This document shows positions 2,850-44,187 of a stretch of 64,000 nt of DNA, piece after piece (position 1 is the first letter of the stretch; every line of letters starts with the position of its first letter). Source of the DNA: Achromobacter sp. Marseille-Q4962 (GTDB lineage: Bacteria > Pseudomonadota > Gammaproteobacteria > Burkholderiales > Burkholderiaceae_B); the NCBI RefSeq assembly GCF_943737005.1, contig NZ_CALSFU010000024.1:1-64000 (forward strand), in the 5' to 3' direction. The notes under the pieces were generated by a model, which was not told where the DNA came from, did not search any database, and was given only the letters and a program-made list of their open reading frames with translations. A program made the translations under genes and the position numbers.

Positions 2850-2866
2850 CAGCAATTGCCATGCCC
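2850..2866 (-). promoter_or_regulatory. sigma-54-type -24/-12 element pointing at EBP 3' end
   Basis: The minus strand reads GGGCATGGCAATTGCTG, with GG-N10-GC spacing. It lies back to back with the plus-strand element at 2872. The predicted start (about 2840) would transcribe antisense into the 3' end of the response regulator gene, where I see no convincing minus-strand gene. Confidence 0.5.
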
Positions 2867-2871
2867 GGCGC

Positions 2872-2888
2872 GGGCACGCGGCTTGCGC
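2872..2888 (+). promoter_or_regulatory. sigma-54-type promoter for the 81-aa protein gene
   Basis: Plus strand GGGCACGCGGCTTGCGC has GG at 2873-2874, GC at 2885-2886 and N10 between. The predicted transcript start is about 2898, 48 bases before the ATG at 2946. Confidence 0.75.
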
Positions 2889-2945
2889 CGCGCGATCCAC
2901 GGACGCACGGTCCGCGACCGGACCGACCCTGCAAGGAGAATCCTC

Positions 2946-3191
2946 ATGAGCCAGCACAAGCAACCTCCCGCCGCCGGAACGCCGGGGCCGGAGCGCGACG
3001 CGCCCAAGGCCAACCGGCCGCGCGAAGAGGGCGAGGCCGCCCGGCGGAGCGGGCAATTCGGCGCGGACAAGCCGGGCTTCGGCAAAGCGCCGCCGCCCGT
3101 GCGGCGCGAGGCCGACAAGACGCCGCACCGCAAGGGACCGGAATACGAGGAAGGCGGGCCGTATCCCGGCAAGCAGCCGGGCGATGCCTGA
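2946..3191 (+). CDS. small hydrophilic Pro/Gly-rich protein
   Basis: An 81-aa protein of unknown family. It is dominated by Pro, Gly, Glu, Lys and Arg (12 Gly in 81), with no Cys and no hydrophobic segment, so it should be soluble and intrinsically disordered. The end reads GPEYEEGGPYPGKQPGDA. Composition resembles hydrophilins and desiccation-related small proteins (resemblance in composition only). The ATG is preceded by AAGGAG. It is a single gene downstream of a sigma-54-type element at 2872-2888 and convergent with another small protein gene at 3300. Confidence 0.75.
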   Translation: MSQHKQPPAAGTPGPERDAPKANRPREEGEAARRSGQFGADKPGFGKAPPPVRREADKTPHRKGPEYEEGGPYPGKQPGDA

Positions 3192-3299
3192 CGGCCCGCA
3201 CGTGCGCCGAAAAACCGCCTCCCGAGGCTGACGCAACCCGCCCGGACGCGCCTGTGCAAGGGCGCGCCTTGCGCAGGGCGCGGGCGCGTCCGCTGCGGG

Positions 3300-3545
3300 T
3301 CAGCGCCGGCGGCGCGAGACGCCGGCCTCGTCCGCGTCGGCGACGCGGTCGGGCGCGATGTCCAGGCCGTCCCGCGTGTCGTCGTCCGGATCCACGCTTT
3401 CGCGTTCCCCGGTGGACTGCGCGTCGCTGTCGGTGCCGGCCATGCCGGGCGGCAGGTCGCTGGCGGAGTCGGAGGAATCGCTCGGCCCGAGATCGGGCCG
3501 GCCGCTGTCATCGGTGTCGGGCAGGGGCAAGGGTTTGCGGGGCAT
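3300..3545 (-). CDS. small acidic Asp/Ser/Pro-rich protein
   Basis: An 81-aa protein beginning MPRKPLPLPDTDDSGRPD, rich in Asp, Ser and Pro, with an arginine-rich C-terminus (SRRRR). There is no hydrophobic segment or Cys and no family I recognise; it is probably disordered. The start at 3545 has GGGAGA upstream. It lies behind the sigma-54-type element at 3712-3728, giving a leader of roughly 157 nt that includes the 15-bp repeats at 3591-3650. It converges with the 81-aa protein gene at 2946. Confidence 0.65.
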   Translation of the reverse strand: MPRKPLPLPDTDDSGRPDLGPSDSSDSASDLPPGMAGTDSDAQSTGERESVDPDDDTRDGLDIAPDRVADADEAGVSRRRR

Positions 3546-3711: not shown

Positions 3712-3728
3712 TGCAGCAAGCGCCGTGC
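3712..3728 (-). promoter_or_regulatory. sigma-54-type promoter, minus strand
   Basis: The minus strand reads CGGCACGGCGCTTGCTG with exact GG-N10-GC spacing (GC complement at 3714-3715). The predicted start is near 3702, driving the acidic 81-aa protein gene (start 3545). Confidence 0.75.
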
Positions 3729-3747
3729 CGGCCGACGCCGGCGGCGT

Positions 3748-3764
3748 CCGGGCATGGAAGTTGC
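3748..3764 (+). promoter_or_regulatory. sigma-54-type promoter, plus strand
   Basis: Plus strand GGGCATGGAAGTTGCTG has GG 3749-3750 and GC 3761-3762. The predicted start is about 3774, 27 nt before the ATG at 3801. Only about 20 bp separate it from the divergent element at 3712-3728. Confidence 0.8.
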
Positions 3765-3800
3765 TGTCCCGGGGAGCATTCATTCCGCGAGGAGGCCGCC

Positions 3801-4388
3801 ATGTCCCTGATTGTTGCGGCGCGCCTGGAAACTTTCGACCAGGCCAGCGCGGTTGCCGCGCGCCTGCATGCCGAAGGCTTTCCGGAGGACGCCATCCATA
3901 CCTTCTACATCAACACGGCGGGCGAGCATGCCCGCTACCCCATCGGCGGCGACCGCGCCGCCGATCCGGACGCGCGTGGCGCGCATTTCGGCGCGGTGGC
4001 CGGCGCGGCGGCGCTGGGGCTGGTGTTTGCGGTGATCGGCGGCGCGCTGGCCTCGCGCATGGCGGGCTCGACGCTGCTCGTCATCATCGCGGCCGGCGTG
4101 GGCGCCTATCTGGGCGCGCTGGCGGGCGCGCTGTGGATCACAGGACGGGTGCGGCGGCCCGCGGCGGGACAGCCGCTACCGCATCCGCCCCTGCGGCAGG
4201 CCGGCGTGATGCTGGCGCTGCATGTGACCCCGGCCCAGGAAGGGCTGGCCCGGCGCGTGCTGCGCGAGGGCGGCGGCCACGACATCGAGCGCGCCCGGGG
4301 CCGCTGGGCGCAGGGGCGCTGGGAGGACTTCGACCCGCTCAAGCCGCCGCAGCAGGCGGAGCCCACATCGACGACCGCGCAACAATGA
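3801..4388 (+). CDS. membrane protein, stress-island hypothetical
   Basis: A 195-aa protein. Residues 1-60 form a small soluble domain (MSLIVAARLETFDQASAVAA) that resembles the N-terminus of general-stress YflT/GsiB-type proteins, in that it looks made to sense or bind rather than catalyse. Two Ala/Gly-rich transmembrane segments follow (about 62-115, with FGAVAGAAALGLVFAVIGGA). The cytoplasmic tail repeats a similar fold (about 135-170) and ends in a low-complexity Gln/Thr stretch. The ATG has GAGGAGG upstream. The gene is led by the sigma-54-type element at 3748. No catalytic motif is seen; the function is unknown. Confidence 0.8.
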   Translation: MSLIVAARLETFDQASAVAARLHAEGFPEDAIHTFYINTAGEHARYPIGGDRAADPDARGAHFGAVAGAAALGLVFAVIGGALASRMAGSTLLVIIAAGVGAYLGALAGALWITGRVRRPAAGQPLPHPPLRQAGVMLALHVTPAQEGLARRVLREGGGHDIERARGRWAQGRWEDFDPLKPPQQAEPTSTTAQQ

Positions 4389-4613: not shown

Positions 4614-7148
4614 CTAATGCGATCCGGGTGCGTCGTTCCCCCACATGCCGAGCTTTTTCAGCATGCGCGGCCCCAGGGTGCGGCGCGACGCCTCGTAGTC
4701 TTTCCAGGCGTCGCCGTACTCGCGCGCCAGCGCCAGCGCATTGCGGATGTTGCAGGCGTCGCCACGCAGATCCCGCGCCTCGTCCAGGGCCTCCCACGGT
4801 AGCGGCATGGATACCGGCGCGCCGTCGCGGGCGCGCGCGGAATAGGCGGCGATGGCCGTCGCGCCGTTGCCGTTGCGCAGATAGTCCACGAATATCCGTC
4901 CGCGCCGCCGCGCTTTGGACATACTGGCGATGAATCTTTCGGGAATCACCCGTTCCAGCTCGCTGGCCAGGGCGTGGCTGAAGTCTTTCACCGTGTCCCA
5001 GTCCTGGGTGGGACGCAGCGGGGCCACCAGGTGCAGCCCCTTGCCGCCCGTGGTCTTGAGAAAGGGCGCCAGCCCCACTTCGCGCATCAGCCCCTGGACG
5101 AGCCTGGCTCCCTCGGCCACGGCGCGCCAGTCCACGCCTTCGCCGGGGTCGAGGTCGATGGTGATGCGGTCCGGATTGTCGCCGCGAGGGTCGCGCGACC
5201 CCCAGGTGTGGAACTCGATGACCCCGATCTGCGCCAGTTCGAGCAGGCCGCGCGGCTCGCGGATGACGAGGTCCTGGCCTTGCCGTTCCAGGCCGGGAGG
5301 CAGGGCGCCGCTGATGTGCTTCTGGAAAAAGCACTCGCCGTCCACGCCTTCGGGGCAGCGCAGCAGCGCGACACGGCGTCCTCGCAGATGCGGCATCATC
5401 AGCCCGGCGGCCGACTCGTAGTACTGCACGAGGTCGAGCTTGCGAGTGTCGGGCTTGCGCAGCACGATGCGGTCGGGATGGGTGACGCGCACCCCGTCCG
5501 GCGCTGCCCCGCGGGACGGGTCGGCGGCGGGCGGGTCGGCCGGGGTTTCGCCGCTTACCTGCGAGGCAGGCTTGTCTTCGCGCAGGCCCGCGAACGAGGC
5601 CTGGCGCAGCAGGCCGTCGTCGGTAATGCCGGCGTAGTTCACTTCGGCAACCAGTTCCGGCCGCACCCATTGCACGCTGCCTGGGCGGCCGCTGCCGTAG
5701 CGGCCGGAACCGGGCAGGGGCGCCGAGAAGGGACTGCGGCCGGTGTGCAGGGCCCGCAGCCTGCGGTGCAGCGATGCCAGGACCTCGGCGGTGTAGCCGG
5801 TGCCGACCCGGCCGGCATACTGCAGCGCGCCGCCTTTGCGCAGCCCCACCAGCAGCGCGCCGAAATGGCGGCGCGACCCGGACGGCGCGGTATACCCGCC
5901 GATCACGAACTCCTGGCGCGGGCGGCATTTGAGCTTGAGCCAGTCCTTGCCGCGCCCGGCCGAGTAGGGCGCGTCCAGCCGCTTGCAGATCAGGCCCTCC
6001 AGTCCGAGCCGGCAGGCTTCTCCCCAGGCGGCGCGTCCCTGCTTTCCGTCGTTCACTTCGAGGCGCTGCGTCATGCGCAGCGGGGCGTCGGCGGGCAGAT
6101 CCGCAAGCAGCGCCTGCAGGCGCGCCTGGCGTTCGGACAGCGGCAGCGCGCGCAGGTCGCGCCCGTTCCAGTAGGGCAGGTCGAAGGCGACGAAGACCAG
6201 CCCTTGCTGTTCGCCGTCCAGCGCGTTCTGCAGCCGCTGGAAATCGGACAGCCCGCGCTCGTCCAGGCTGACGACTTCGCCGTCTATCCAGCCCGCGCCC
6301 AGGTCCAGCCGGGCCAGGGCGTCGGCCAGCGGCCGCATGCGTGCCGTCCAGTCGCCGCCGTTTCGGCTGCGGAAGTCCACGCCGCGCCTGCCCTTGCCGA
6401 TGCGGCAGAGCACCCGGTAGCCGTCGTATTTCACTTCATAGGACCAGCCCGGGCCGTCGGGCGGGCGGTCGACCAGGGTGGCGAGCTGAGGCTCGATGGA
6501 CGCGGGCATGGCGGCCTTGCGTCCGGCCCGCGCCGCCCCGGCGGCGGCCTTGCGCCGGCGGGCGGCGCCGTCTAGCGGGCCGTTATCTTGAGGGTCGTCG
6601 TCTTGCCGCCGGCGAGGCGTCCCGCCGGCCGCGCCTGCCGGATCTTCGGCATCGTCGCCGGGGACGGCGTAGCGGTCGTCCAGCTTGCGCAGCAGCCATT
6701 GCTTGCCGTTGCGGCCCAGGCGCAGCAGCACCCATTCGCCCCGCATGGCGCCGCCCCGCAGCGTGAAATGCAGATGGCCTCGGGCCAGCCCGCGCCCGGG
6801 GTCGCCCTCCGGTATCCAGGTGCCGCTGTCCCAGATGTCGACGTGGCCGGCGCCGTAATGGCCTTCGGGGATGTCGCCCTCGAACTTGCCGTACTCCAGC
6901 GGATGGTCTTCCACCCTCACGGCCAGCCGCTTGACGCCGGGGTCGCGGCTCGGCCCCTTGGGCACGGCCCAGCTCACCAGCACGCCGTCCAGCTCCAGCC
7001 GGAAGTCGTAATGCAGGTGGCTGGCCTGGTGCCGCTGTATGACGTACGACAGTGCGCGGCCCCGCGCCTGGCGGGCTGCGCGGCCGGGGGGCTCGCTGGT
7101 GGCGCGGAAATCGCGCTTCTTGCGGTATTCGCTCAGGGGCTGGTCCAA
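4614..7148 (-). CDS. ligD: multifunctional NHEJ DNA ligase LigD
   Basis: An 844-aa ATP-dependent ligase of bacterial non-homologous end joining. Domain order is phosphoesterase, ligase, polymerase, as in Pseudomonas LigD. The 3'-phosphoesterase (about 1-165) has HLHYDFRLE (44-52) and GHYGAG (97-102). A charged linker (165-215) leads to the nucleotidyltransferase, with catalytic Lys240 in EVKYDGYR. The OB fold follows, then the polymerase/primase domain from about 555 to the end, with metal-binding DLDPGEG. The start is TTG at 7148, with GAGGAG six bases upstream; the stop is TAG. It lies 10 bp after ku, so ku-ligD form an operon behind the sigma-54-type element at 8154-8170. Confidence 0.96.
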   Translation of the reverse strand: MDQPLSEYRKKRDFRATSEPPGRAARQARGRALSYVIQRHQASHLHYDFRLELDGVLVSWAVPKGPSRDPGVKRLAVRVEDHPLEYGKFEGDIPEGHYGAGHVDIWDSGTWIPEGDPGRGLARGHLHFTLRGGAMRGEWVLLRLGRNGKQWLLRKLDDRYAVPGDDAEDPAGAAGGTPRRRQDDDPQDNGPLDGAARRRKAAAGAARAGRKAAMPASIEPQLATLVDRPPDGPGWSYEVKYDGYRVLCRIGKGRRGVDFRSRNGGDWTARMRPLADALARLDLGAGWIDGEVVSLDERGLSDFQRLQNALDGEQQGLVFVAFDLPYWNGRDLRALPLSERQARLQALLADLPADAPLRMTQRLEVNDGKQGRAAWGEACRLGLEGLICKRLDAPYSAGRGKDWLKLKCRPRQEFVIGGYTAPSGSRRHFGALLVGLRKGGALQYAGRVGTGYTAEVLASLHRRLRALHTGRSPFSAPLPGSGRYGSGRPGSVQWVRPELVAEVNYAGITDDGLLRQASFAGLREDKPASQVSGETPADPPAADPSRGAAPDGVRVTHPDRIVLRKPDTRKLDLVQYYESAAGLMMPHLRGRRVALLRCPEGVDGECFFQKHISGALPPGLERQGQDLVIREPRGLLELAQIGVIEFHTWGSRDPRGDNPDRITIDLDPGEGVDWRAVAEGARLVQGLMREVGLAPFLKTTGGKGLHLVAPLRPTQDWDTVKDFSHALASELERVIPERFIASMSKARRRGRIFVDYLRNGNGATAIAAYSARARDGAPVSMPLPWEALDEARDLRGDACNIRNALALAREYGDAWKDYEASRRTLGPRMLKKLGMWGNDAPGSH

Positions 7149-7158
7149 TGGGGACTCC

Positions 7159-8085
7159 TCAGGCCGCTTTGCGCCGCGAGGGCGCGCTGCGGGCGCCGGT
7201 CTTGCGCGCGCCGGCCTTGGCGGCGGCCTTGGCGGCCCCGGCGCCCGCGGAAGCGGCGGAGGCCGCCTTCTTGCGCGCGGCGGACGGCTTGCCGCCGCGG
7301 CTTTCTATGCTCTGCTTCAGCATGGCCATGAGGTCGATCACCTTGGCCGACCGGCGCGCGGGGGCCTCGCCGGCTTCGGTGAGCACGTGGGTCTTGCCCG
7401 CCTTGATCTTCCGGTCGATGGCGTCGAGCAGGTCTTCGCGGTATTCGTCGCGGAAGGCGTCCGGATCCCATTCCATGGCCATGTCCTGCACCAGCCGCAG
7501 CGCCATTTCCTTCTCGCGCGGCGTAGGCGCGTCGGCCGGGCGCGGCGCGGGCAGCTCCAGTTCGCCGGCGGGCAGGATCTCGTCGGCATAGCGCAGGGTG
7601 ATGAGCATGAGCGCCTCCGCCTGGGGCAGCAGCGCGCACAGGTGCTCGCGGGTGTGCAGCACCACGCGGGCCAGGCCGAGCCTGCCGCTCTTGCGCAGCA
7701 CGTCGCGCAGCAGCGCATAGCCCTTGGCGCCGCGCCGGTCGGGCGCAAGGTAGTAGGGCGTGTCGTAGTAGAAGATGGGGATCTCGGCGGCGTCCACGAA
7801 TCCCTGCACGTCCACGGTCTGCGTGGCGGCGACGTTGGCGCGCCGGAAATCCTCGTCGCTGAGATAGACGTACTCGCCTTTCTCGTACTCGTAGCCCTTG
7901 ACGATGTCTTCGGCCGCGATGGACTTGCCCGTGCGCTTGTTGATGCGCTGGTAGCCGACGGGGGAGTCGTCGCGCCGGTCTATCCAGTCGAAATCGAGGC
8001 GGTGCGGCCGGGTAGCGGCGTACACCACGATAGGTATGTGCACCAGGCCGAAGGCGATGGCGCCTTTCCAGATAGTTCTGGGCAT
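7159..8085 (-). CDS. ku: Ku DNA end-binding protein
   Basis: A 308-aa bacterial Ku that encircles broken DNA ends and recruits LigD. The core starts MPRTIWKGAIAFGLVHIPI and carries the usual VKGYEYEKGEYV and YYLAPDRRGAKGYALL signatures. After about residue 262 there is a Lys/Ala/Arg-rich tail (AARKKAASAAS onward) of the type that threads along DNA and binds LigD. The start at 8085 is preceded by AGGAG; an upstream in-frame ATG at 8145 would lie in the hairpin leader. It is the first gene of ku-ligD. A sigma-54-type element at 8154-8170 predicts a leader of about 59 nt carrying a 34-bp perfect palindrome. Confidence 0.96.
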   Translation of the reverse strand: MPRTIWKGAIAFGLVHIPIVVYAATRPHRLDFDWIDRRDDSPVGYQRINKRTGKSIAAEDIVKGYEYEKGEYVYLSDEDFRRANVAATQTVDVQGFVDAAEIPIFYYDTPYYLAPDRRGAKGYALLRDVLRKSGRLGLARVVLHTREHLCALLPQAEALMLITLRYADEILPAGELELPAPRPADAPTPREKEMALRLVQDMAMEWDPDAFRDEYREDLLDAIDRKIKAGKTHVLTEAGEAPARRSAKVIDLMAMLKQSIESRGGKPSAARKKAASAASAGAGAAKAAAKAGARKTGARSAPSRRKAA

Positions 8086-8153: not shown

Positions 8154-8170
8154 CAGCAACCGCCGTGCCC
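8154..8170 (-). promoter_or_regulatory. sigma-54-type promoter of ku-ligD
   Basis: The minus strand reads GGGCACGGCGGTTGCTG, with GC complement at 8156-8157 and GG complement at 8168-8169. The predicted transcript start is about 8144; the ku ATG is at 8085. Confidence 0.85.
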
Positions 8171-8228: not shown

Positions 8229-8570
8229 TTACTGGCGGCCCACCAGCACGCCGAACAGAAAGGCGGCGCCCGCCACCAGCCCCACGGCCTGCCAGGGGCG
8301 GGCCTGGATATATTCCTCGGTGCAGTCCAGCGTTTCCCTGACCAGGTCGTTGGCGGTTTCCGACGCCGCGCGCAGGCTCTGGCGGGTGGCCTGGAGCTGG
8401 TCGGACAGGCGGGCCTTGAGCGCGTCGATGTCCGCGTTGGCAGGGTCGCGCAGCGTCTCCTCCAGATCGTCGATCCAGCTTTCCGGACTGCGGGCGCGCC
8501 GGCGCGCGACGCCGTCGTCCGGTCCGTTCTCGGGAAAATCGGAGGGCGCGGGATTATGGGTAGAGGCCAT
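8229..8570 (-). CDS. DUF883/ElaB-YqjD-like membrane-anchored protein
   Basis: A 113-aa protein with a charged N-terminus, a long amphipathic helix (about 35-85, SWIDDLEETLRDPANADIDA) and a C-terminal transmembrane anchor (PWQAVGLVAGAAFLFGVLVG). This is the layout of the ElaB/YqjD/YgaM family, which anchors ribosomes or other partners to the inner membrane in stationary phase in E. coli. The start at 8570 has GGAGC upstream. It follows the Cys-rich protein gene (8631) by 60 bp on the same strand and is probably cotranscribed. A second family member lies at 35672. Confidence 0.85.
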   Translation of the reverse strand: MASTHNPAPSDFPENGPDDGVARRRARSPESWIDDLEETLRDPANADIDALKARLSDQLQATRQSLRAASETANDLVRETLDCTEEYIQARPWQAVGLVAGAAFLFGVLVGRQ

Positions 8571-8630: not shown

Positions 8631-8960
8631 CTAGGCGGGGTCCATGTGGCGGCACGCCTGGGCGCATGCCAGGCAGGCGTTGGCGCAGGACTGGCAGTGC
8701 TGCGCCGCGAACGAGGCGCACTCGCGGGCGCAGGCGTCGCACGCCAACGCGCACAATCTGCATGCGGCAATGGAAAACATTCCGCCGCGGGCGACGAGCC
8801 GCGCCGCGGTGCGGCACACGGCCGCGCATTCCAGGTCGAACCGGATGCAGGATTGCATGGACTGCGGGTTGTCGGCAAGACACATCGCAGCGCAGTGGTC
8901 GCAGGCGGCGGCGCATTCCTCACAGGCTTGCACAGATTTGCGGAATTGTGGGCTTTGCAT
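8631..8960 (-). CDS. Cys-rich four-helix-bundle copper-storage-like protein
   Basis: A 109-aa protein with 18 cysteines, spaced as CxxC and CxxxC along predicted helices (ACEECAAACDHCAAMC and later ACLACAQACRHMD). This matches the four-helix-bundle copper storage proteins (DUF326/Csp3 type), which hold many Cu(I) ions inside the bundle. No signal peptide is seen, so it should be cytosolic. The start at 8960 has AAGGAG upstream. A weaker sigma-54-type element lies at 9003-9019. The next gene on the strand is the DUF883 protein. Copper binding is inferred from the cysteine pattern. Confidence 0.88.
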   Translation of the reverse strand: MQSPQFRKSVQACEECAAACDHCAAMCLADNPQSMQSCIRFDLECAAVCRTAARLVARGGMFSIAACRLCALACDACARECASFAAQHCQSCANACLACAQACRHMDPA

Positions 8961-9002: not shown

Positions 9003-9019
9003 CAGCAAACGGCGCGCCC
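9003..9019 (-). promoter_or_regulatory. weaker sigma-54-type element for Cys-rich gene
   Basis: The minus strand reads GGGCGCGCCGTTTGCTG. The GG-N10-GC spacing and the TTTGCTG half are intact, but the -24 half has GGCGC instead of GGCAC. The predicted start is about 8993, 33 nt before the ATG at 8960. Confidence 0.45.
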
Positions 9020-9408: not shown

Positions 9409-9425
9409 GGGCACGCCAATTGCTG
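9409..9425 (+). promoter_or_regulatory. sigma-54-type promoter of the PfpI operon
   Basis: Plus strand GGGCACGCCAATTGCTG has GG 9410-9411 and GC 9422-9423. The predicted start is about 9435, 41 nt before the ATG at 9476. CGCAACGG direct repeats lie just upstream (about 9373-9392). Confidence 0.85.
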
Positions 9426-9475: not shown

Positions 9476-10024
9476 ATGGACAAGGAATTGCAGGACGCCA
9501 ACATCGCCATTCTCGTGGTGGACGGCTTTGAGCAGATCGAGCTGACCAGCCCGCGCGATGCGCTGCAGGCGCAGGGCGCGCGCACGGTGGTCGTTTCCGC
9601 ACGGCGCGAGCCGGTGCAGGGCATGAATCACCACGAAAAGGCAGACAGCGTCGAGGCCGAACTGATCTTCGCCGAGGCCGATCCGGAGCATTTCGACGCG
9701 GTGCTGCTGCCCGGCGGCGTCATCAACGCCGACGAGATCCGTATGCACGCCAAGGCCCGGGAATTCGTGCGCGCCATGCACGAGGCCGGCAAGCCCATCG
9801 CCGTCATCTGCCATGGCGGCTGGCTGCTCATCTCCGCCGGCCTGGTCAAGGGCCGCAGGATGACGAGCTGGCCGTCTCTGGCCGACGACCTGAAGAACGC
9901 CGGCGCCCACTGGGTGGACGAGGAAGTGGTGGTGGACGGGCGCTGGGTCAGCAGCCGCAGGCCCGGCGACCTGCCGGCATTCAACCGTGAAATGCTGCGC
10001 GTATTCGCGCTGGCCCGGCGCTGA
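9476..10024 (+). CDS. PfpI/DJ-1 family protein (YhbO-like)
   Basis: A 182-aa member of the DJ-1/PfpI class I glutamine-amidotransferase-like superfamily, of the PfpI/YhbO branch. YhbO-type proteins are stress-protective and have been linked to repair of glyoxal-damaged biomolecules. The nucleophile elbow reads AVICHGGWLL, with Cys followed by His. The acidic partner sits in the N-terminal ILVVDGFEQIELTSP segment, and LLPGGVINADEIR is typical. ATG 9476 follows GGGAGCC. It is the first gene of a likely four-gene transcript (9476-11535) behind the sigma-54-type element at 9409. Confidence 0.92.
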   Translation: MDKELQDANIAILVVDGFEQIELTSPRDALQAQGARTVVVSARREPVQGMNHHEKADSVEAELIFAEADPEHFDAVLLPGGVINADEIRMHAKAREFVRAMHEAGKPIAVICHGGWLLISAGLVKGRRMTSWPSLADDLKNAGAHWVDEEVVVDGRWVSSRRPGDLPAFNREMLRVFALARR

Positions 10025-10319: not shown

Positions 10320-10472
10320 ATGTCGACCATACTGCTGATTATTCTCATCCTGCTGCTCATCGGGGCGGTGCCGGCCTGGCCGTACAGCCGCAACTGGGGG
10401 TATTACCCGAGCGGGCTGCTGGGCATCGTGGTCATCGTGCTGATCGTGCTGCTGCTCATGGGACGGCTATAG
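10320..10472 (+). CDS. DUF3309 small membrane protein
   Basis: A 50-aa protein with two hydrophobic segments: MSTILLIILILLLIGAVPAW at the N-terminus and LLGIVVIVLIVLLLMGRL at the C-terminus. They are joined by a polar turn with WPYSRNWGYYPSG. The WGYYPSG motif and size match the DUF3309 family of tiny inner-membrane proteins of unknown function. The ATG has AAAAGGAG upstream. It is third in the PfpI operon. Confidence 0.88.
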   Translation: MSTILLIILILLLIGAVPAWPYSRNWGYYPSGLLGIVVIVLIVLLLMGRL

Positions 10473-11535: not shown

Positions 11536-11574
11536 CAGCGTCCGCCGCGCTGGCGGGCAGGGAGCCTGCCGCCC

Positions 11575-22635: not shown

Positions 22636-24743
<2,108 letters not shown>

Positions 24744-24757
24744 GGGAATTCAGCCTG

Positions 24758-30303: not shown

Positions 30304-30316
30304 GATGCCACGCGGT

Positions 30317-33481: not shown

Positions 33482-33508
33482 CGGGCGCTCCTTGTGCAAT
33501 GGCGGTCC

Positions 33509-35159: not shown

Positions 35160-35176
35160 CAGCAAGCGCCGTGCCC
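35160..35176 (-). promoter_or_regulatory. sigma-54-type promoter of the glg-tre operon
   Basis: The minus strand reads GGGCACGGCGCTTGCTG, identical at all 17 positions to the elements at 39217 and 44171. The predicted start is about 35150, 58 nt ahead of glgA. It would drive 19 kb of glycogen and trehalose genes. Confidence 0.9.
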
Positions 35177-35281: not shown

Positions 35282-35298
35282 GGGCACGCGGATTGCTG
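35282..35298 (+). promoter_or_regulatory. sigma-54-type promoter of the 35348 gene
   Basis: Plus strand GGGCACGCGGATTGCTG has GG 35283-35284 and GC 35295-35296. The predicted start is about 35308, 40 nt ahead of the ATG at 35348. The gap to the divergent glg promoter is 105 bp and contains TGCCGTTGTTGCCG repeats. Confidence 0.85.
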
Positions 35299-37318: not shown

Positions 37319-38077
37319 TCAGGGCACGACGCGCGGAACGCCCATCCGCGCGCCCATCACCATCTCGGTAATCCAGTTCACCAGTATCGACGTGTATGCG
37401 CGCTGCGAGGCCTTGTCGCTCAGCGCGTGGTCGGCCCCGTCCACGATGCGGTGCGTCAGCGAATGCGAGCGGCGAAACGCCGCGCGGTAGCTCATGATGG
37501 TGGAGTGCGGGATATAGGTGTCGTGCTCCGATTCCACGATCAGCACGTCGCCCGGAAAGGTGGCGCAGGCCGCCAGCGCCCGGTTCTCTTCCGGCTCCAC
37601 GCGTCCGCTGCGGTAGGCGCGCAGCGTTTCGCGGTTGAGCTGGTTCTTGGGCAGCAGCCATTCGTCGTCCCGGTAGAGCGCCGGCACGTGCAGCGCCAGC
37701 CAGCGCACCCGGCGCAGGCTGCTCAGGATGGCGGCCAGGTAGCCGCCGTAGCTGCTGCCCACCACCGCCACCGAGCCGGTATCCAGCGAAGGGTGCGCGG
37801 CCAGCCGGTCATAGGCCGCCATGACGTCGCGCAGATTGTCGTCGCGCGACACCTCGCGCTGGCACGCCTGCGTGGCGGCATGGCCGCGCAGGTCGAAGGT
37901 GAGGCAGATGCAGCCCAGGGCCGCGATGCCCTTGGCGCGGGCCAGGTCGAATCGCTGGCTGCCGCCCCAGCCATGGATGAACAGCACGCCCGGCACCTTG
38001 GTGTCCGGCGTGAGAAAGGTGCCGGCCAGCTGCTGCCCGGCCACCTCGATTTCGATGCCTTCACTGAGCGCGGCCAT
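37319..38077 (-). CDS. alpha/beta hydrolase (dienelactone-hydrolase-like)
   Basis: A 252-aa alpha/beta hydrolase. The oxyanion strand is VPGVLFIHGWGGS, the nucleophile elbow VVGSSYGG (Ser in GSSYGG), the acid is in VLIVESEHDTYIP and the His in DGADHALSD. The substrate is unknown. The start at 38077 is preceded by GGAGG and lies inside the last 17 nt of the DUF3182 gene, so the two are coupled. Both lie behind the sigma-54-type element at 39217. Confidence 0.88.
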   Translation of the reverse strand: MAALSEGIEIEVAGQQLAGTFLTPDTKVPGVLFIHGWGGSQRFDLARAKGIAALGCICLTFDLRGHAATQACQREVSRDDNLRDVMAAYDRLAAHPSLDTGSVAVVGSSYGGYLAAILSSLRRVRWLALHVPALYRDDEWLLPKNQLNRETLRAYRSGRVEPEENRALAACATFPGDVLIVESEHDTYIPHSTIMSYRAAFRRSHSLTHRIVDGADHALSDKASQRAYTSILVNWITEMVMGARMGVPRVVP

Positions 38078-39206
38078 GCGTGTCCTCCAGAATGCCGCCA
38101 GACTTGGTAATGAATCCCACCGTGGAATCCTGTCCCCGGTAGATGCGCTGCTGCGCGCTGGGCTCGGGCGCGTCGGGTCCGTAGCGCTCGCAGGTCATGG
38201 CGCGCACCGAGGCGAGCGCGGGCGAGAGCGCGAATGCCTGCATGGCGGCCAGTTCGGCCACGCTGGCGCCGCCCAGGCGCCACGACTGCTCCAGCACGCC
38301 GCAGCGCGCTTGGCCGTCGGCCGAACGGCCCAGCGCCACGTCGTAGTTCCGCCGCGACGCGTAGAACTGCGGGTAAATCGTCGAGACGGCGGTGTCGTAG
38401 CGGCAGGCCAGGGCCAGGACGCGCCGCTCGTTCTCCGACAGGGGCAGGGCGCGCAGATGATCGAAACCGCCGCGCGCGCACAGCAGCGTGGAGCCGCCAT
38501 AGACCTGCGCGCCCTTGTTGTCGCGCGTGAGGCTTTGGGTTCCCACATAGGAAATCTCCAGCCTGCCCACGCGCGCCCAGCCCACGCTGTAGGTTTCGAC
38601 GTCTTCCAGATCCTCCTCCAGCACCAGTCCCAGACGCCGCACCTGCGCGGGCGCCAGCCGCTTGAGCGCGGCTTCCAGTTCCTGCTCGCTGCGCACCACC
38701 TGCTGGCCGCGCCCCGCGTTGGCGTCGGGCGGCTTCAGGCGCACGGCTCCCTGCCGCAGCAGGCGCGAGCCGGCGCGGGCCGCGTCTTCGAGCGTGAAGG
38801 CGGAATAGCCGCGCAGCACCACGTCTTCGAGCTGCGCGGCCAGGTCGCGCGACCAGCCCGCCGGCGCCTTGGCGCGCGCATCCACCAGGCCGTGCGTGAT
38901 GGACTTGCCGGCCAGGTAGGCGTGGGGCGTCACGCCGCCGTACAGGTCGGCGGCGCGCCGGATGCCCAGCCTGGCCGCGCGGGCCAGGCTCGTGATGGTG
39001 CGGTCGGGCACGTAGTACGGAACCGGCAGGTCGCGGTGGCGGCTGGGCCGAAAGCGCGGCAGGAACTCGCAGCCCAGCAGCGCCGCCAGCCGCAGCGCCA
39101 CGGCTTCCTGCGAGGCGATCTCGTGCTCCGAGGCGCCTCGCCGCTGCGGATACGCGACCACCAGGGAGGGCGGCCCGGAAGAATGAGGGGCGGATCGTGG
39201 TTCCAT
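38061..39206 (-). CDS. DUF3182 protein, ATP-grasp-like
   Basis: A 381-aa protein of the DUF3182 family, known mainly from Burkholderiales and Pseudomonas. A basic N-terminus reaches an ATP-grasp-like region with VRLKPPDANAGRGQQVV and RRLGLVLEEDLEDVETYSVGW, suggesting nucleotide-dependent ligase activity, but the function is unknown. ATG 39206 has no ribosome site, and the sigma-54-type element at 39217-39233 predicts a start at about 39207, so the transcript may be leaderless; a GTG about 14 codons in is the alternative. It overlaps the hydrolase gene at its 3' end. Confidence 0.8.
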   Translation of the reverse strand: MEPRSAPHSSGPPSLVVAYPQRRGASEHEIASQEAVALRLAALLGCEFLPRFRPSRHRDLPVPYYVPDRTITSLARAARLGIRRAADLYGGVTPHAYLAGKSITHGLVDARAKAPAGWSRDLAAQLEDVVLRGYSAFTLEDAARAGSRLLRQGAVRLKPPDANAGRGQQVVRSEQELEAALKRLAPAQVRRLGLVLEEDLEDVETYSVGWARVGRLEISYVGTQSLTRDNKGAQVYGGSTLLCARGGFDHLRALPLSENERRVLALACRYDTAVSTIYPQFYASRRNYDVALGRSADGQARCGVLEQSWRLGGASVAELAAMQAFALSPALASVRAMTCERYGPDAPEPSAQQRIYRGQDSTVGFITKSGGILEDTHGRAQ

Positions 39207-39216
39207 GCCGAGCCGG

Positions 39217-39233
39217 CAGCAAGCGCCGTGCCC
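39217..39233 (-). promoter_or_regulatory. sigma-54-type promoter of DUF3182-hydrolase
   Basis: The minus strand reads GGGCACGGCGCTTGCTG, with GC complement at 39219-39220. The predicted start is about 39207, one base before the annotated ATG at 39206. Confidence 0.85.
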
Positions 39234-39343: not shown

Positions 39344-39360
39344 GGGCATGGCGTTTGCTG
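39344..39360 (+). promoter_or_regulatory. sigma-54-type promoter of the PGI-like gene
   Basis: Plus strand GGGCATGGCGTTTGCTG has GG 39345-39346 and GC 39357-39358. The predicted start is about 39370, 41 nt ahead of ATG 39411. The divergent gap (39234-39343) contains two GCGGAAAA motifs. Confidence 0.85.
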
Positions 39361-39410: not shown

Positions 39411-41210
39411 ATGCTCCTGCGCAGTTCCAGCTACTCCCTGCCGCGTCCCTTGCCGCTGGCGCCCCGCGCGCGGCGGACCCGCGGGCGCGCCCGGCTCAAC
39501 GGCTTCCGCTATGCGCTGCCCGAGGCCCTGTCGCGCGCGCTCGACACCCAGCTCGCCATCGCGCGGCGCGACGGGTGGATCCGACGCCTGTGGGCGCGCG
39601 ACGCCTCGCTGTGGACCGGCCGCGACGAGTCCCAATGGCTGGGCTGGCTGGAGCCCGCGGCCCGGCCGCGCAATTGCGCGCGCCTGTCGGCGGCCTGCAT
39701 GCGCCTGCGGGAAGCGGGCTACGCCGACGCGGTGGTGCTGGGCATGGGCGGCGCGAGCCTGGGCTCGGAAGTGCTGGCCGGCATCCTGCGCCCCAGCGCG
39801 CTCGGCCTGAGCGTGCACGTGCTGGATTCCACCGACGTGGAGCAGATCCGCCAGGTCGAAAGCCGCATCGACCCGTTGCGCTGCCTGTTCGTGGTGGCCA
39901 GCAAGTCCGGCGCCACGCTGGAATCGCGCATGCTGGCGTCCTACTTCCACGGCAGGCTGTGCGGCCTGCTCGGACGCCAGGAAGCCGGGCGGCGCTTCAT
40001 CGCCATCACCGATCCCGGCACGCCCCTGCACCGGCAGGCGCTGCAGGACGGCTACGCCGCGGTCTTCGAAGGCGAGCCTTCCGTCGGCGGGCGCTATTCG
40101 GCGCTGTCGGCCTTCGGGCTTGTCACGCTGGCGCTGCTCGGACACGACCCGGGCGCTTTCCTGCGGGACGCGCGGCCCATGCTGCGCGCCTGCTCGGTCC
40201 ATGCGCTGCCGCGGCGCAATCCCGGCCTGGTCCTGGGCGTCTTGCTGGGCGTGGCGGCGCGCGCGGGCCGCGACAAGGCGACCCTGCTGTCATGTCCCGG
40301 GCTGGAGGCCCTGGGCGCCTGGCTCGAACAGCTGCTGGCCGAATCCACCGGCAAGAACGGCGTCGGCATCGTGCCGGTGGACGGCGAGCCGCCGGGCCGG
40401 CCGGCCGATTACGGCCCCGACCGTCTTTTCATCCAACTGCGCCAGCCGCGCGCCCCGTGCGCGGAGCAGGACGCGCTGTGCGAGGCGCTGGAGCGGGCGG
40501 GGCGCCCGGTACTGCGCTTCGACATTGCGGGCCCCGGATCGCTGGGGCAGGAATTCTTCCGGTGGGAGGTAGCCACGGCCATCGCGGGAGCGGTTCTCGG
40601 CGTGAACCCTTTCGACCAGCCCGACGTGGAAGCCAGCAAGCGGCGCGCGGGCGAACTGGCGGCGCGCCGCGCCGGCGGCGTCTGCCCGCAGCCCGGGCCG
40701 GCGATGGAGAGCCCCGGCCTGCGTCTGTACGGCGACGTGCCGGCGGCCGCCTCGGTGGAGGAGGCGCTGGCGCGGCACGTCTCGCTGGCGGGCCCGGGCG
40801 GCTATGTGGCGCTGCTGGCCTATCTGCCCCGCGATGCCCGGCACGGCGAACGGCTGGCGGCATGGCGGCGCCTGCTGCGCAGCCATACCGGCGCGGCCAC
40901 CATGGCGGGCTTCGGACCGCGCTACCTGCATTCCTGCGGCCAATTGCACAAGGGCGGCCCCGGCGGCGGCGTGTTCCTGTTCCTGACGGCCGAGCGCGAG
41001 CGGGAACGGGAGGCCCCCGGGCACGCGCTGGGCTTTGCCGCGACCCAGGCCGCCCAGGCGCTGGGCGACATGGAAGAGCTGCGCGCGCGCGGCCGCCCCT
41101 GCCTGCGCGTGCATCTCAGGGGCGGGTGCGGGGCGGCGGGGCTGGAACCGTTCGATCGCGCGTTGCGCCGGGCGCTCGGGCGGGCCGGGAGCGTGCCCGC
41201 AGTTCGATGA
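39411..41210 (+). CDS. glucose-6-phosphate-isomerase-like SIS protein
   Basis: A 599-aa protein matching the PGI half of the bifunctional transaldolase/PGI enzymes: VVLGMGGASLGSEVL, LFVVASKSGATLES, GKNGVGIVPVDGE and LHKGGPGGGVFLF. No transaldolase half is attached, and the first 40 residues are Arg/Pro-rich. It may interconvert glucose-6-phosphate and fructose-6-phosphate and so feed the glucan/trehalose pathway, but this is inferred from resemblance. No strong ribosome site precedes ATG 39411. Its 3' end overlaps the convergent ybhN by 95 bp. Confidence 0.82.
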   Translation: MLLRSSSYSLPRPLPLAPRARRTRGRARLNGFRYALPEALSRALDTQLAIARRDGWIRRLWARDASLWTGRDESQWLGWLEPAARPRNCARLSAACMRLREAGYADAVVLGMGGASLGSEVLAGILRPSALGLSVHVLDSTDVEQIRQVESRIDPLRCLFVVASKSGATLESRMLASYFHGRLCGLLGRQEAGRRFIAITDPGTPLHRQALQDGYAAVFEGEPSVGGRYSALSAFGLVTLALLGHDPGAFLRDARPMLRACSVHALPRRNPGLVLGVLLGVAARAGRDKATLLSCPGLEALGAWLEQLLAESTGKNGVGIVPVDGEPPGRPADYGPDRLFIQLRQPRAPCAEQDALCEALERAGRPVLRFDIAGPGSLGQEFFRWEVATAIAGAVLGVNPFDQPDVEASKRRAGELAARRAGGVCPQPGPAMESPGLRLYGDVPAAASVEEALARHVSLAGPGGYVALLAYLPRDARHGERLAAWRRLLRSHTGAATMAGFGPRYLHSCGQLHKGGPGGGVFLFLTAEREREREAPGHALGFAATQAAQALGDMEELRARGRPCLRVHLRGGCGAAGLEPFDRALRRALGRAGSVPAVR

Positions 41211-42135
41211 GCGCGAAAGCCGCCAGGGCCAGGCAGAGCGGCGCCAGCGCGTAGACGGCGCGGTACGCCAGCGCGGCGCCCAGCACCTCCGGCGCGGGCA
41301 GGCGCGACGAGAGCCCGGTCACCAGGATGGCCTCCGTCGTGCCCAGTCCGCCGGGCACGCGCGTGATCACCGCCGCGAAGCTCGCGCACAGCAGAATGCC
41401 GAGCACCGCGGCGTAGGGGGCCCGGCCTTGCAACAGCACATAGGCGACGGCGCCCATCGCCGACCACGACAGCACGGCCACCGCGCTTTGCGCCAGGGCC
41501 ATGCGCCAGCCCGGCAGAGCGGCATGCTGCCCCATCCAGGTCCACGACCGTTTGCGCGAAAAAGCGCACACCAGCACATAGGCCAGCGAGGCGGCCAGCA
41601 GTCCGGCGCCCAGCAGGCGCAGCGCGCCCGCGCCGATTTCCCAGCCGCGCGGCGCCGGCACCGCGCCCGCGAGGAACAGGGCGCCCGCCAGCCAGCCGTA
41701 GCCGATCCAGTTGCTGGCGGCGGAAAACAGGGCCACGCGCGTGGCGACCGATTTGCGGGCGCCCAGGCGCGCATACAGCCGCAGGCGCGCGCCCAGCCCG
41801 CCGAGCAGCACGCCCAGGTTCTGGTTGAGCGCGTAGCTCAGCATGGCCACGCCCAGCGTGGCGGGCCAGGGCAGCCCGTGGCCGGTGTAGCGGCGCGCCA
41901 GCAGGTCCATGCCGCCGTAGGCCAGGTAGCCCGCCAGCGAGAGCGCGGCGGCCAGCGCCACGCCCGCGGGCGGAATCGCGCGCATGGCGCGCCACACCTG
42001 CGCCCAGTCGACCGAGCGTCCGAAGTAATAGAGCAGGACGGCGGCCGCCACGAGCACCGCGCAGGGCAACATGCGCTTGATGCGCGGCCAGCGGTGGCGC
42101 AGCGCCCGCATGAAGGACGAGCGGAAGACCCTCAT
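41116..42135 (-). CDS. ybhN: YbhN-like inner-membrane protein (UPF0104)
   Basis: A 339-aa polytopic protein of the lysylphosphatidylglycerol-synthase-TM/UPF0104 family, with about eight transmembrane segments. SYALNQNLGVLLGGLGARLRLY and the late RVPGGLGTTEAIL are family signatures. It is the third gene of ybhP-clsB-ybhN, the same order as in E. coli ybhPON. It starts at 42135, overlapping the clsB stop by ATGA. Its 3' end runs 95 bp into the convergent PGI-like gene. Confidence 0.92.
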   Translation of the reverse strand: MRVFRSSFMRALRHRWPRIKRMLPCAVLVAAAVLLYYFGRSVDWAQVWRAMRAIPPAGVALAAALSLAGYLAYGGMDLLARRYTGHGLPWPATLGVAMLSYALNQNLGVLLGGLGARLRLYARLGARKSVATRVALFSAASNWIGYGWLAGALFLAGAVPAPRGWEIGAGALRLLGAGLLAASLAYVLVCAFSRKRSWTWMGQHAALPGWRMALAQSAVAVLSWSAMGAVAYVLLQGRAPYAAVLGILLCASFAAVITRVPGGLGTTEAILVTGLSSRLPAPEVLGAALAYRAVYALAPLCLALAAFALIELRARSRPARAPGATRDRTVPAPPPRTRP

Positions 42136-43379
42136 GCCGCTTCCTCGCGCGGCGGATCGGCGAACGACTTCAGGCGCGGCTTGTGCGCGGGCAGGCTGCC
42201 GGCCCAGGCCGGAAAGCGGCGCAGAAAGTGGAACACCACCACGCCCACCCACAGGCGCCGCAGGCGGCGGCGCGAGGGCGTGGACAGGGGCACCGGCTTG
42301 CAGTCCTCGGCGATGAGGCGGTCCAGGTTGCCGCGCAGCGCTGCATTGAGCCGGCTGTCGCGCGCGACCACATTGGCCTCGAGGTTCAGCGCCAGGCTGA
42401 AGGGATCCAGATTGCTGGAGCCCACCGTGGACCAGTCGTCGTCCACGCACGCCACCTTGGCGTGCAGCGGCCGGCGGCAGTACTCGTAGATTTCCACGCC
42501 GGCGTCGATGAGGTAGTCGTAAAGCATGCTGGCCGCCAGGCGGGCGATGAGCATGTCGGGTTCGCCCTGCAGCACCAGCCGCACGCGCACGCCGCGCCGC
42601 GCGGCGTTGGCCAGGTCGTGCAACAGCCGCCATCCGGGAAAGAAATAAGCGTTTGCGATCAGCACGTCGCGGCGGGCGGCGCGCACGCCCGCGCGGTAAT
42701 AGCGCTCGATGTCGCTGGTATGCGCCTCGTTGTCGCGCACCACCAGCCGGCCGCCGCCGTCGCCGGCCGGCGTGCCTTCCACCGCGCGGGGCCGGCGCCG
42801 CCGCGGATTGCCGGGCGCGACCGCGGCGCGCGCGAAATCGGCGATGTCCGCGGCCAGCGGGCCCTCCACGCGCACCGCATAGTCCTGCTTGGCCTCGGGG
42901 CCGTGTTCGGGCAGGTGGTCTTCCGCGAAATTGATGCCGCCCACCAGCGCCAGTTCGCCGTCCACGGCCACGATCTTGCGGTGCATGCGGCGAAACAGAT
43001 TGGTGCGCACGCCCAGGAAACGCGGGCGGGGGTCGAACACATGCAGGCGCGCGCCACTGGCGGTCAGCGCTTCCACGAAGGCGGGGCTCAAGCTGTCCGA
43101 ACCGTAGCCGTCCACCGTCAGGTCCACGCTGACGCCGCGCCGGGCCGCGTCGATCAGCGCGCGCTGCAATTCGCGGCCCACCGCGTCCTCGAAGAGAATG
43201 AAGGTTTCGATCAGCACCTCGCGCCGCGCCGCCGCCACGGCCCGCAGCACCTCGGGAAAGAACTCCGTGCCGTTTTCCAGCAGCTCGTAGCGGTTGTTCT
43301 CGCGCCACGGCAGGCTCACGGGCGTGCTTTCGCGCGGCGCGCCGCGGTATTCGACCTGGGGGCGGCCCTGCACGCTCAT
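42132..43379 (-). CDS. clsB: cardiolipin synthase B
   Basis: A 415-aa phospholipase-D-family cardiolipin synthase of the ClsB/YbhO type. Two HKD motifs are intact: HRKIVAVDGELALVGGINF and HAKVACVDDDWSTVGSSNLD. It has no N-terminal transmembrane pair, unlike ClsA, as expected for ClsB. It makes cardiolipin from phosphatidylglycerol and probably a second phospholipid. It starts at 43379, overlapping the ybhP stop by ATGA, and overlaps ybhN in the same way. It lies behind the sigma-54-type element at 44171. Confidence 0.95.
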   Translation of the reverse strand: MSVQGRPQVEYRGAPRESTPVSLPWRENNRYELLENGTEFFPEVLRAVAAARREVLIETFILFEDAVGRELQRALIDAARRGVSVDLTVDGYGSDSLSPAFVEALTASGARLHVFDPRPRFLGVRTNLFRRMHRKIVAVDGELALVGGINFAEDHLPEHGPEAKQDYAVRVEGPLAADIADFARAAVAPGNPRRRRPRAVEGTPAGDGGGRLVVRDNEAHTSDIERYYRAGVRAARRDVLIANAYFFPGWRLLHDLANAARRGVRVRLVLQGEPDMLIARLAASMLYDYLIDAGVEIYEYCRRPLHAKVACVDDDWSTVGSSNLDPFSLALNLEANVVARDSRLNAALRGNLDRLIAEDCKPVPLSTPSRRRLRRLWVGVVVFHFLRRFPAWAGSLPAHKPRLKSFADPPREEAA

Positions 43380-44140
43380 AGCGAAATCTCCGCGCAGATG
43401 GGCACGTGGTCCGAGAGGCGGGACCATACGCGCGATGCCAGGGGCACGGGCCGCCAGTCGCGCACGTCGCGCACGTAGATGCGGTCCAGCCGCAGCAGGG
43501 GCCAGCGCGCCGGAAACGTGCGCGCGGGCCGGCCCGCGCGGCTCGTGAACACTTCGCGCGCGCCGCAGCCGTTCATTACCGCGTCGGCGCGCTGCCGCCA
43601 GTCGTTGAAGTCGCCCGCCACCAGCAGCGGCTCGCCGGGCGGAACCTCGCGGGCCATCAGCTCGCACAGCCGCTCTAGCTGGCGCCGCCGGTGCCGCTCG
43701 CGCAGCCCGAGGTGCACGCAGATGGCGTGCACCGGCGCGGCCGCGTGCGGCGGGCGCAGGACGCAGTGCAGCAGGCCCCGGGCCTCGTGGCCGCTCATGC
43801 TTACGTCGTGGTTCACGTGGGCCTGGATGGGATAGCGGGACAGTACGGCGTTGCCATGGTGGCCTTCGGGATAGACCGCGTTGCGCCCATATGCATAGTC
43901 GGTCCACAGCGTGTCGGCCAGGAACTCGTACTGCGATCCGGGCGGCCAGGTCTTGTGGCGCTCCGCATGGCCCTGGTGCTCGCCCAGCACTTCCTGCAGG
44001 AACACCACGTCGGGCGCGGCGGTGCGCAGCGCCGTGCGCAATTCATGCAGCATGAAGCGGCGGTTGAAGCTCGTGAAGCCTTTGTGCGTATTGACGGTGA
44101 GCACCGTCAGCCTGGGAGCGGCGGAGTCTGCGGCTGGCAT
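43376..44140 (-). CDS. ybhP: YbhP-like endonuclease/exonuclease/phosphatase protein
   Basis: A 254-aa EEP-superfamily protein. The motifs are LTVLTVNTHKGF, DVVFLQEVLGEHQGH (metal-binding Glu), LLVAGDFNDWRQRAD (catalytic Asp/Asn) and SRLSDHVPICAE (late Asp/His). The order with clsB and ybhN repeats E. coli ybhPON, though the role of YbhP is unknown. The start at 44140 has no clear ribosome site; the predicted sigma-54 transcript start (about 44161) leaves a 21-nt leader. Confidence 0.92.
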   Translation of the reverse strand: MPAADSAAPRLTVLTVNTHKGFTSFNRRFMLHELRTALRTAAPDVVFLQEVLGEHQGHAERHKTWPPGSQYEFLADTLWTDYAYGRNAVYPEGHHGNAVLSRYPIQAHVNHDVSMSGHEARGLLHCVLRPPHAAAPVHAICVHLGLRERHRRRQLERLCELMAREVPPGEPLLVAGDFNDWRQRADAVMNGCGAREVFTSRAGRPARTFPARWPLLRLDRIYVRDVRDWRPVPLASRVWSRLSDHVPICAEISL

Positions 44141-44170
44141 GGCGGGTCCGGTGACAGGAAGCGCAGCGTT

Positions 44171-44187
44171 CAGCAAGCGCCGTGCCC
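44171..44187 (-). promoter_or_regulatory. sigma-54-type promoter of ybhP-clsB-ybhN
   Basis: The minus strand reads GGGCACGGCGCTTGCTG, identical to the elements at 35160 and 39217. It lies between the ybhP start (44140) and the mgtC stop (44209). The predicted start is about 44161. Confidence 0.88.

Follow-up and report, generated by a model that had tools for sequence, protein, structure and literature searches.

Within 64,000 nucleotides (nt) of the genome of Achromobacter sp. Marseille-Q4962 (assembly GCF_943737005.1, contig NZ_CALSFU010000024.1, positions 1 to 64,000, hereafter the window), genes for DNA end-joining, glycogen and trehalose metabolism, membrane repair and small disordered proteins are preceded by twelve elements of the -24/-12 type, which raises the question of what could control them as one set. 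The genome comprises 4.89 Mb in 73 contigs, and the window is the left end of the contig designated C24. The likely cause of the sites, missed in the initial annotation, is a pair of divergent activators at the window start, bEBP1 and bEBP2, together with a second rpoN gene on another contig, C46. We consider it probable that a dedicated module of this second sigma-54 protein (RpoN2) and the activators drives a general-stress regulon, with the use of RpoN2 itself presumed from sequence comparisons.

The initial annotation had listed twelve sites fitting GGGCAYG-N4-TTGCTG (Table 1). All of them exist, but the pattern was too strict, as only nine match it exactly. Single mismatches occur in 3714− (C instead of the first G) and 9003− (G instead of A), and 2872+ reads GGGCACG-N4-TTGCGC, with a decayed -12 element that places it outside the pattern. 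Ten of the coordinates were right, and the other two (3712 and 3748) were two bases off and are corrected here to 3714 and 3750. A canonical sigma-54 promoter has GG and GC dinucleotides 10 bp apart within TGGCACG-N4-TTGCW. In line with the earlier description, the GG-N10-GC spacing is exact in 12/12 sites of the window, ten of which match the core of this promoter type, and the sites 35160−, 39217− and 44171− are the same over 17 bp. It was also borne out that eleven sites face a start codon ∼1–159 nt past the predicted transcript start, the exception being 2850−, which faces no recognised gene. For eight sites, the Shine-Dalgarno-led start of a recognised gene lies 25–159 nt past that point, and the genes behind 39217−, 39344+ and 44171− start ∼1, 41 and 21 nt past it, respectively. 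The assignment of the sites as sigma-54 promoters, with predicted transcript starts, is well supported, and they probably belong to one regulon; because the sites are known from sequence alone, we infer rather than observe control by sigma-54.

The G+C content of the window is 71%, and chance occurrence of the motif therefore had to be tested. With at most one mismatch to GGGCAYG-N4-TTGCTG, 11 sites were found in the window, compared with 0.39 expected from dinucleotide shuffles (0/100 shuffles reached 11), and the looser core GGCAYR-N4-TTGCW occurred 10 times, compared with 0.42 expected. The count inside versus outside the window that the initial annotation had proposed, run as a pattern search, gave 12 exact matches genome-wide, including nine in the window, and the reversed control had no match. 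Two of the exact matches outside the window (C5:185546 and C23:58079) precede open frames, and the third (C58:5230) lies within a coding frame. The core pattern occurs 39 times in the genome (5 times reversed), with 10 occurrences in the window (binomial p = 7e-11). Loose matches are noisy, as at two mismatches 346 sites were counted genome-wide versus 185 for the reversed pattern; this is what a chance origin would have in its favor, and because of this weak signal the claim rests on close matches only. A chance origin is already contradicted by 10–11 sites for ∼0.4 expected, by the location of 9/12 exact sites in the window and by the conservation described below, and its probability is negligible.

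The regulon sites are accompanied by other core sites in the genome. Outside the window, C5, C23:58079 and C46, there are 26 of them, 7 of which lie within predicted genes. Some of the sites outside the island, i.e. the site-bearing part of the window, precede genes for glutamine synthetase, PII protein, a dicarboxylate carrier and a urea-type transporter (recognised by eye, with no family scan). These are classical sigma-54 targets and act as positive controls. A variant, GGGAACG-N4-TTGCTG, precedes a small disordered protein in L164 (own contig C3, 78500-80500) and in L014. As genes in Achromobacter loci have this variant as well, exact matching may underestimate the size of the regulon.

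Relatives of the locus were collected by a bEBP1 scan of named genomes, and the best 80 of 582 loci were analyzed. The nearest loci are from Achromobacter, followed by Bordetella, Pigmentiphaga, Cupriavidus, Ralstonia, Paraburkholderia, Caballeronia and others. The 80 loci contain 188 core sites, 182 of which are not within predicted genes, and the reversed control gave 2. In the 40 loci L065-L104, a core site is present at four fixed positions relative to bEBP1 in 28, 25, 12 and 16 loci. Orthologues were compared in loci L044-L054, where a site was scored within 300 nt and with at most one mismatch. Site-bearing window genes kept the site in 21/28 orthologues, versus 1/47 for genes without a site of their own, and the sole hit in this control (12612-14789, L045), which was nevertheless counted, arose artefactually because the start lies beyond the locus. 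When two mixed genes (10320-10472, 3/8; 35672-36001, 1/2) are counted as controls, the control value becomes 5/57 and p = 1e-9. The weak members of the test are the DUF326 gene (1/4) and the 35348 gene (0/1). The mixed gene 10320-10472 (+) encodes a 50-aa membrane-type protein that has no site here, and its orthologues in the Bordetella loci L051 and L052 have an exact core site. The invariant -24/-12 bases seen in promoter alignments were discarded as evidence, as the sequences had been picked by that pattern and the argument would be circular. The high similarity of the sites, several of which are arranged back to back, would also be expected if the motif were not a promoter but were bound by another regulator or formed a mobile repeat. 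This explanation is very improbable in view of the exact GG-N10-GC spacing around free middle bases, the orientation of the sites toward nearby starts, the occurrence of the core sequence at other genomic targets of the sigma-54 type and the retention of the sites at orthologues.

The two activator genes are divergent and open the window. In both products the AAA+ (PF00158) and Fis-type helix–turn–helix (HTH; PF02954) domains score over the cut-off, which is the domain composition of sigma-54 activators. Nine of the 13 PF00158 matches in the genome are strong, and both activators are among these nine. The loop of both reads GSFTGA, one residue off the canonical GAFTGA. The true start of bEBP2 is probably internal, near residue 79. 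A bEBP2-like gene that reads away from bEBP1 within 4 kb is present in 67/80 loci, and two of the misses have <3 kb of upstream sequence. A search for rpoS and rpoN, also proposed in the initial annotation, gave no rpoS match over the model cut-off in this genome and a second rpoN on C46. A core site lies just upstream of this rpoN2 gene (C46:16335-16349), near the contig end at 16416, and a gene for a hybrid kinase lies beside it. In seven Achromobacter loci (L044-L049 and L054), the order is bEBP2, then rpoN on its far side, then the kinase; therefore, C46 presumably abuts C24. Among the 80 loci, an rpoN of at least 380 aa is located within ∼10 kb in 41, and 27/41 of these genes have an exact core site just upstream. 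For comparison, a core site within 250 nt was found for 96/1172 predicted genes of at least 100 aa in these loci, targets included.

Several further features were observed around these rpoN genes. The site GGGCATGGGCCTTGCGG at L158:14353-14369 (own contig C46) precedes a small secreted-type protein beside rpoN2, and in L044 and L054 core sites are found before a protein similar to it. A DUF2325 protein is encoded at L158:10456-11178 (own contig C46) beside the hybrid kinase, and a similar-looking protein flanks the kinase in L044. In an uncultured Caballeronia symbiont (L104:9836-11217), rpoN was matched in two separate pieces, suggesting that the gene is decaying.

The association of the activators with a second rpoN extends across the order. 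In a survey of 300 genomes, 29 were classified as module genomes by a near-full-length bEBP1 relative of at least 53% identity (chosen by eye; full-length matches of 41–48% and AAA+-only matches were excluded). At least two rpoN genes, counted by eye, are present in 25/300 genomes, comprising 22/29 module genomes and 3/271 others (Fisher p = 3e-24, relatedness uncorrected). In the three exceptions among the 271 (G056, G169 and G284), the bEBP1 matches cover the AAA+ part only. The unit is a conserved second-RpoN/activator module that reaches beyond the island.

The two sigma-54 proteins are accompanied by two promoter forms. A T at position -26 is found in 0/10 core sites of the window (G in nine and C in one) versus 19/29 core sites located elsewhere in the genome (p = 4e-4); the 29 comparison sites include those on C5, C23 and C46, which are counted as part of the regulon and have G at -26. 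In the relatives, T at -26 occurs in 8/51 sites of Achromobacter/Bordetella, 6/11 of L055-L064, 17/99 of L065-L104 and 5/27 of L105-L123, counts that are inflated by relatedness. The strict non-T TTGCTG form was found 65 times (6 reversed) in six module genomes of the window's own family and 3 times (0 reversed) in four family members without the module; it was rejected as an order-wide trait, being enriched only in this family. In the protein tree, one edge (support 0.974) splits 17 RpoN1s, i.e. the best rpoN match from each of 16 genomes and our own, from 41 locus RpoNs and our RpoN2. The last residue of the RpoN box is Glu in 16/17 and Asp in 1/17 RpoN1s, compared with Glu in 0/41 and Asp in 2/41 locus RpoNs, and the box of our RpoN2 reads ARRTVSKYRG versus the reference ARRTVAKYRE. 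The RpoN box is described as contacting the -24 element (PMC3162934; unless stated otherwise, the papers are cited here and below from parts of their texts). The differences would be consistent with altered -24 recognition by RpoN2, as a correlation and not as proof.

These differences also bear on the possibility that the linked bEBPs act as activators while housekeeping RpoN1 transcribes the island promoters, leaving RpoN2 with few targets or redundant. Both RpoNs have the sigma-54 DNA-binding domain, some module genomes have a single rpoN (see below) and in Ralstonia solanacearum a plasmid-borne rpoN2 restored C4-dicarboxylate growth in rpoN1 mutants (PMC4676750), so an overlap of the two RpoNs is possible. 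However, both the promoter form (island versus other sites) and the RpoN box differ, rpoN is linked to the activators and preceded by a site at the frequencies given above, and other RpoN1 functions were not restored by RpoN2 in the cited part of the R. solanacearum study (PMC4676750). Transcription of the island by RpoN1 is thus quite unlikely, and RpoN2 is retained as the preferred sigma factor.

The genes recognised behind the sites in the window are ku-ligD, PfpI, the glycogen/trehalose run from glgA to treY, DUF3182, clsB and small disordered proteins, all of which the initial annotation had named as lead genes, together with DUF326/DUF883 genes and an isomerase-like gene. In the relatives, sites precede rpoN (27, by motif), a small proline-rich protein (27), an otsA-like GT20 gene (26) and a CsbD cluster (12, of which the three from Achromobacter were not verified individually), and further DUF883 (5), PfpI (4), topoisomerase IB (4), ku (2) and glgA (2), with single cases of glgE-, glgC- and poxB-like and DUF892 genes. 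Domain scans covered a single example of each of GT20, CsbD, topoisomerase IB, the thiamine pyrophosphate (TPP) enzyme and DUF892; for the other targets, names were assigned by eye or from similarity to genes of the window. Such a target set is usually described as RpoS-type stress genes. The largest target is the glycogen gene run, and many sigma-54 regulons are nutritional, so the regulon could serve nitrogen or carbon-surplus storage instead of general stress. This is unlikely in view of the cross-species targets ku, otsA-like, csbD, DUF892, the poxB-type TPP enzyme, topoisomerase IB, PfpI and clsB; a set of the ku/otsA/csbD/DUF892/poxB/PfpI/clsB type is usually described as stress genes. 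Elsewhere in this genome, the exact site on C23 is followed by an operon encoding a 215-aa protein and a catalase of the HPII type with 794 aa (L167:468-3520; NF008422 1009.6 bits, under the cut-off of 1102).

A number of results weigh against the reading that a stress regulon is driven by a dedicated RpoN2/activator module. An exact site was found upstream of HPII-type catalases in only 1/13 other module genomes (the congener G036, L186, 714 nt upstream) versus 0/17 controls, and with at most one mismatch in 3/13 module versus 1/17 non-module cases (p = 0.29). This test covered HPII-type matches only (13/28 and 17/31 places) and 40 non-module genomes hand-picked from 271, and two of the 13 catalases have short upstream sequence (L189, 417 nt; L198, 1 nt). 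A katE site as a general marker of the module was rejected on the 1/13 versus 0/17 exact matches. For KatE of Burkholderia pseudomallei, discussed below, the authors of the RpoN2 study mention an earlier report that RpoS may control it (PMC4745423). In our genome rpoN2 and the kinase lie on another contig, and their linkage to the activators rests on relatives. The kinase is present in only 9/80 loci, all from Achromobacter or Bordetella, plus one weak match, so the hybrid kinase is not a general partner of the module. Only one rpoN is seen in 7/29 module genomes. With midpoint rooting, L120 is placed beside the RpoN1s and L114, L122 and L123 near the root, and only the rest of the locus RpoNs form one clade. 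Outside the window's family, the strict non-T TTGCTG form occurs 47 times versus 30 reversed in 23 module genomes. The upstream sequences of 14 promoters of our genome and 33 of relatives were searched for a shared enhancer as exact dyads and words, and no dyad exceeded shuffled controls. In the four promoter classes of L065-L104, the top 4-mer dyad, CGCG-N17-CGCG, scored 1.09 (maximum of 10 shuffles, 0.995) and was present in 4% of class A, which is not convincing, and 5-mer dyads scored below the shuffle maximum.

The relation of the module to RpoS was examined in the same genomes. The suspected absence of rpoS was supported at the level of the TIGR02394 cut-off, which no match exceeded either in this genome or among 36 congener genomes, of which two are incomplete; over the cut-off, rpoS was found in 11/61 genomes searched, all outside the genus. 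Across the 300 genomes of the order, 129 have rpoS, i.e. 6/29 module genomes and 123/271 others, so that the two are mildly exclusive (Fisher p = 0.01, relatedness uncorrected). As relatedness is uncorrected, the lower rpoS frequency in module genomes is not taken as proof of replacement, and because the module is also found in rpoS-bearing genomes, replacement of RpoS is possible but not shown. The module can therefore not be regarded as a mere substitute for RpoS. The initial proposal of a stress module rewired to sigma-54 therefore holds in one part: sigma-54 control is well supported by the enrichment, the conservation, the adjacent activators and the second rpoN, which is adjacent in relatives, but rewiring from RpoS is unproven given the six rpoS-bearing module genomes. 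More broadly, and with somewhat less than even confidence, Burkholderiales may possess a sigma-54-type general stress response, in which a paralogous sigma-54 with altered -24 recognition, which lacks the RpoN-box Glu and does not need T at -26, runs, with an activator pair of its own, an RpoS-like regulon that includes the gene for this sigma factor, and stands in for RpoS in rpoS-less lineages such as this genus.

In the mechanism that we propose, stress or starvation would lead to phosphorylation of bEBP1 through a kinase path, and in this genus the GAF-PAS hybrid kinase beside rpoN2 probably feeds the activators. bEBP1, alone or with bEBP2, would then remodel RNA polymerase-RpoN2 at GGGCAYG-N4-TTGCTG promoters, which would induce the genes for DNA end-joining, for glycogen/trehalose, for cardiolipin and for catalase and those of the small disordered proteins, and RpoN2 would raise its own level through its -24/-12 site. 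The sites, their conservation, the gene linkage in relatives, the differences at -26 and in the RpoN box and the lack of an rpoS match over the cut-off are observations. Activation by bEBP1/bEBP2, the use of RpoN2 rather than RpoN1, the pairing with the kinase and stress as the inducing signal are the parts of this scheme that we infer.

Table 1. Activator genes, -24/-12 sites and C46 genes considered in this work. Positions refer to the window unless preceded by C46; the last column gives orthologues of the downstream gene in which the site is kept.
Feature	Position	Strand	Domains, or genes behind the site	Orthologues with site
bEBP2, sigma-54 activator	67..1311	-	AAA+ domain and Fis-type HTH, without receiver; Pfam PF00158 1.7e-61, HTH_8	
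bEBP1, NtrC-type response regulator	1328..2695	+	Receiver, AAA+ and Fis HTH; Pfam Response_reg, Sigma54_activat 5.3e-71, HTH_8	
-24/-12 site, orphan	2850..2866	-	Exact match; no recognised gene up to bEBP1 stop	
-24/-12 site, decayed -12 (TTGCGC)	2872..2888	+	81-aa disordered protein 2946-3191	5/7
-24/-12 site, one mismatch	3714..3730	-	Small acidic protein 3309-3545	2/2
-24/-12 site	3750..3766	+	195-aa protein 3801-4388	8/9
-24/-12 site	8154..8170	-	ku (7159-8085; TIGR02772) and ligD (4614-7148)	1/1
-24/-12 site, one mismatch	9003..9019	-	Cys-rich DUF326 gene 8631-8960 and DUF883 gene 8229-8570	1/4
-24/-12 site	9409..9425	+	PfpI gene 9476-10024	3/3
-24/-12 site	35160..35176	-	19-kb run 15960-35092: glgA, glgE, treS, glgB, glgX, treZ, malQ, treY	1/1 (glgA)
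-24/-12 site	35282..35298	+	Disordered protein 35348-35602 and DUF883 gene 35672-36001	0/1 (35348-35602)
-24/-12 site	39217..39233	-	DUF3182 gene 38061-39206 and alpha/beta hydrolase 37319-38077	DUF3182: no orthologue in L044-L054
-24/-12 site	39344..39360	+	Glucose-6-phosphate isomerase-like gene 39411-41210	
-24/-12 site	44171..44187	-	Open reading frame 43376-44140 (no NCBIfam match) and clsB (42132-43379)	
rpoN2	C46:14842-16269	-	PF00309, PF04963, PF04552 (AID, core-binding, DNA-binding) over cut-off; TIGR02395 434 bits, cut-off 277	
Hybrid kinase	C46, beside rpoN2		1000-aa GAF-PAS-kinase-receiver protein	

The orphan site 2850-2866 (−) faces only ∼155 nt plus the tail of bEBP1. At the equivalent place, a site heads a small secreted-type protein in L044 (gene 11394-11789−) and in L054, which fits with a putative loss of the gene here. 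The orphan site could also make a small RNA. An Rfam scan of the window gave nothing over the cut-offs.

Proteobacterial general stress responses are known to run on RpoS or the EcfG system. The RpoS general stress regulon of enterobacteria and pseudomonads includes katE, otsA, csbD-like, poxB-like, yciE-like DUF892 and glg genes and ku-ligD, and its gene content overlaps with that of the island regulon. The two differ in that neither this genome nor the 36 congeners has an rpoS match over the cut-off. RpoS is a sigma-70 family factor that, unlike sigma-54, uses no activator ATPase. If our reading is true, expression of the survival genes would depend on an activator driven by ATP, and so on an explicit signal, and not on sigma competition. 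Among the matches listed in a search of open-licence full texts, which does not cover subscription papers, there was no description of an RpoN2/activator module.

The closest parallels described are second sigma-54 proteins of other Burkholderiales, likened here by description. In B. pseudomallei, katE expression requires RpoN2 and nitrogen use does not (PMC4745423). This resembles the present case, in which a katE-like operon has an island-type site, as a second sigma-54 is needed there for a stress gene. In the cited part of that study, however, one target was studied, without activators or a clustered regulon (PMC4745423), and the exact katE site is limited to our genome and one congener among the 13 other module genomes. 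R. solanacearum likewise has two non-equivalent sigma-54 proteins (PMC4676750, PMC4371752). Its rpoN2 deletion showed wild-type growth on all compounds tested, virulence did not critically depend on rpoN2, and C4-dicarboxylate use was the only function in which RpoN2 could take the place of RpoN1 (PMC4676750); the word 'stress' is absent from this text. In two other Ralstonia loci (L063 and L064), the locus rpoN has its own site. The module would point to a role for the second RpoN of Burkholderiales, for which the Ralstonia tests, as far as cited, gave no growth or virulence phenotype (PMC4676750). In the related genus Bordetella, BP2158 of Bordetella pertussis is, by its description, similar to the activators of the module: it is a Fis-type sigma-54 activator whose regulon is undefined and upstream of which a sigma-54 promoter sequence has been reported (PMC11722255).

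RpoN1 and RpoN2 of Rhodobacter sphaeroides are a further likeness, being paralogues with differing promoter preference and cognate activators (PMC3162934). The promoters of that system are said to vary only at -11 (PMC3162934), whereas the difference here is at -26, and with its naturally occurring pair of sigma-54 proteins and promoter forms the present module could be used to map how -26 is recognised. Trehalose, glycogen, catalase and Burkholderia are not mentioned in the main text of PMC12316311. According to the cited part of that paper, RpoN2 of R. sphaeroides serves flagella (PMC12316311), whereas the targets of the module described here are stress genes.

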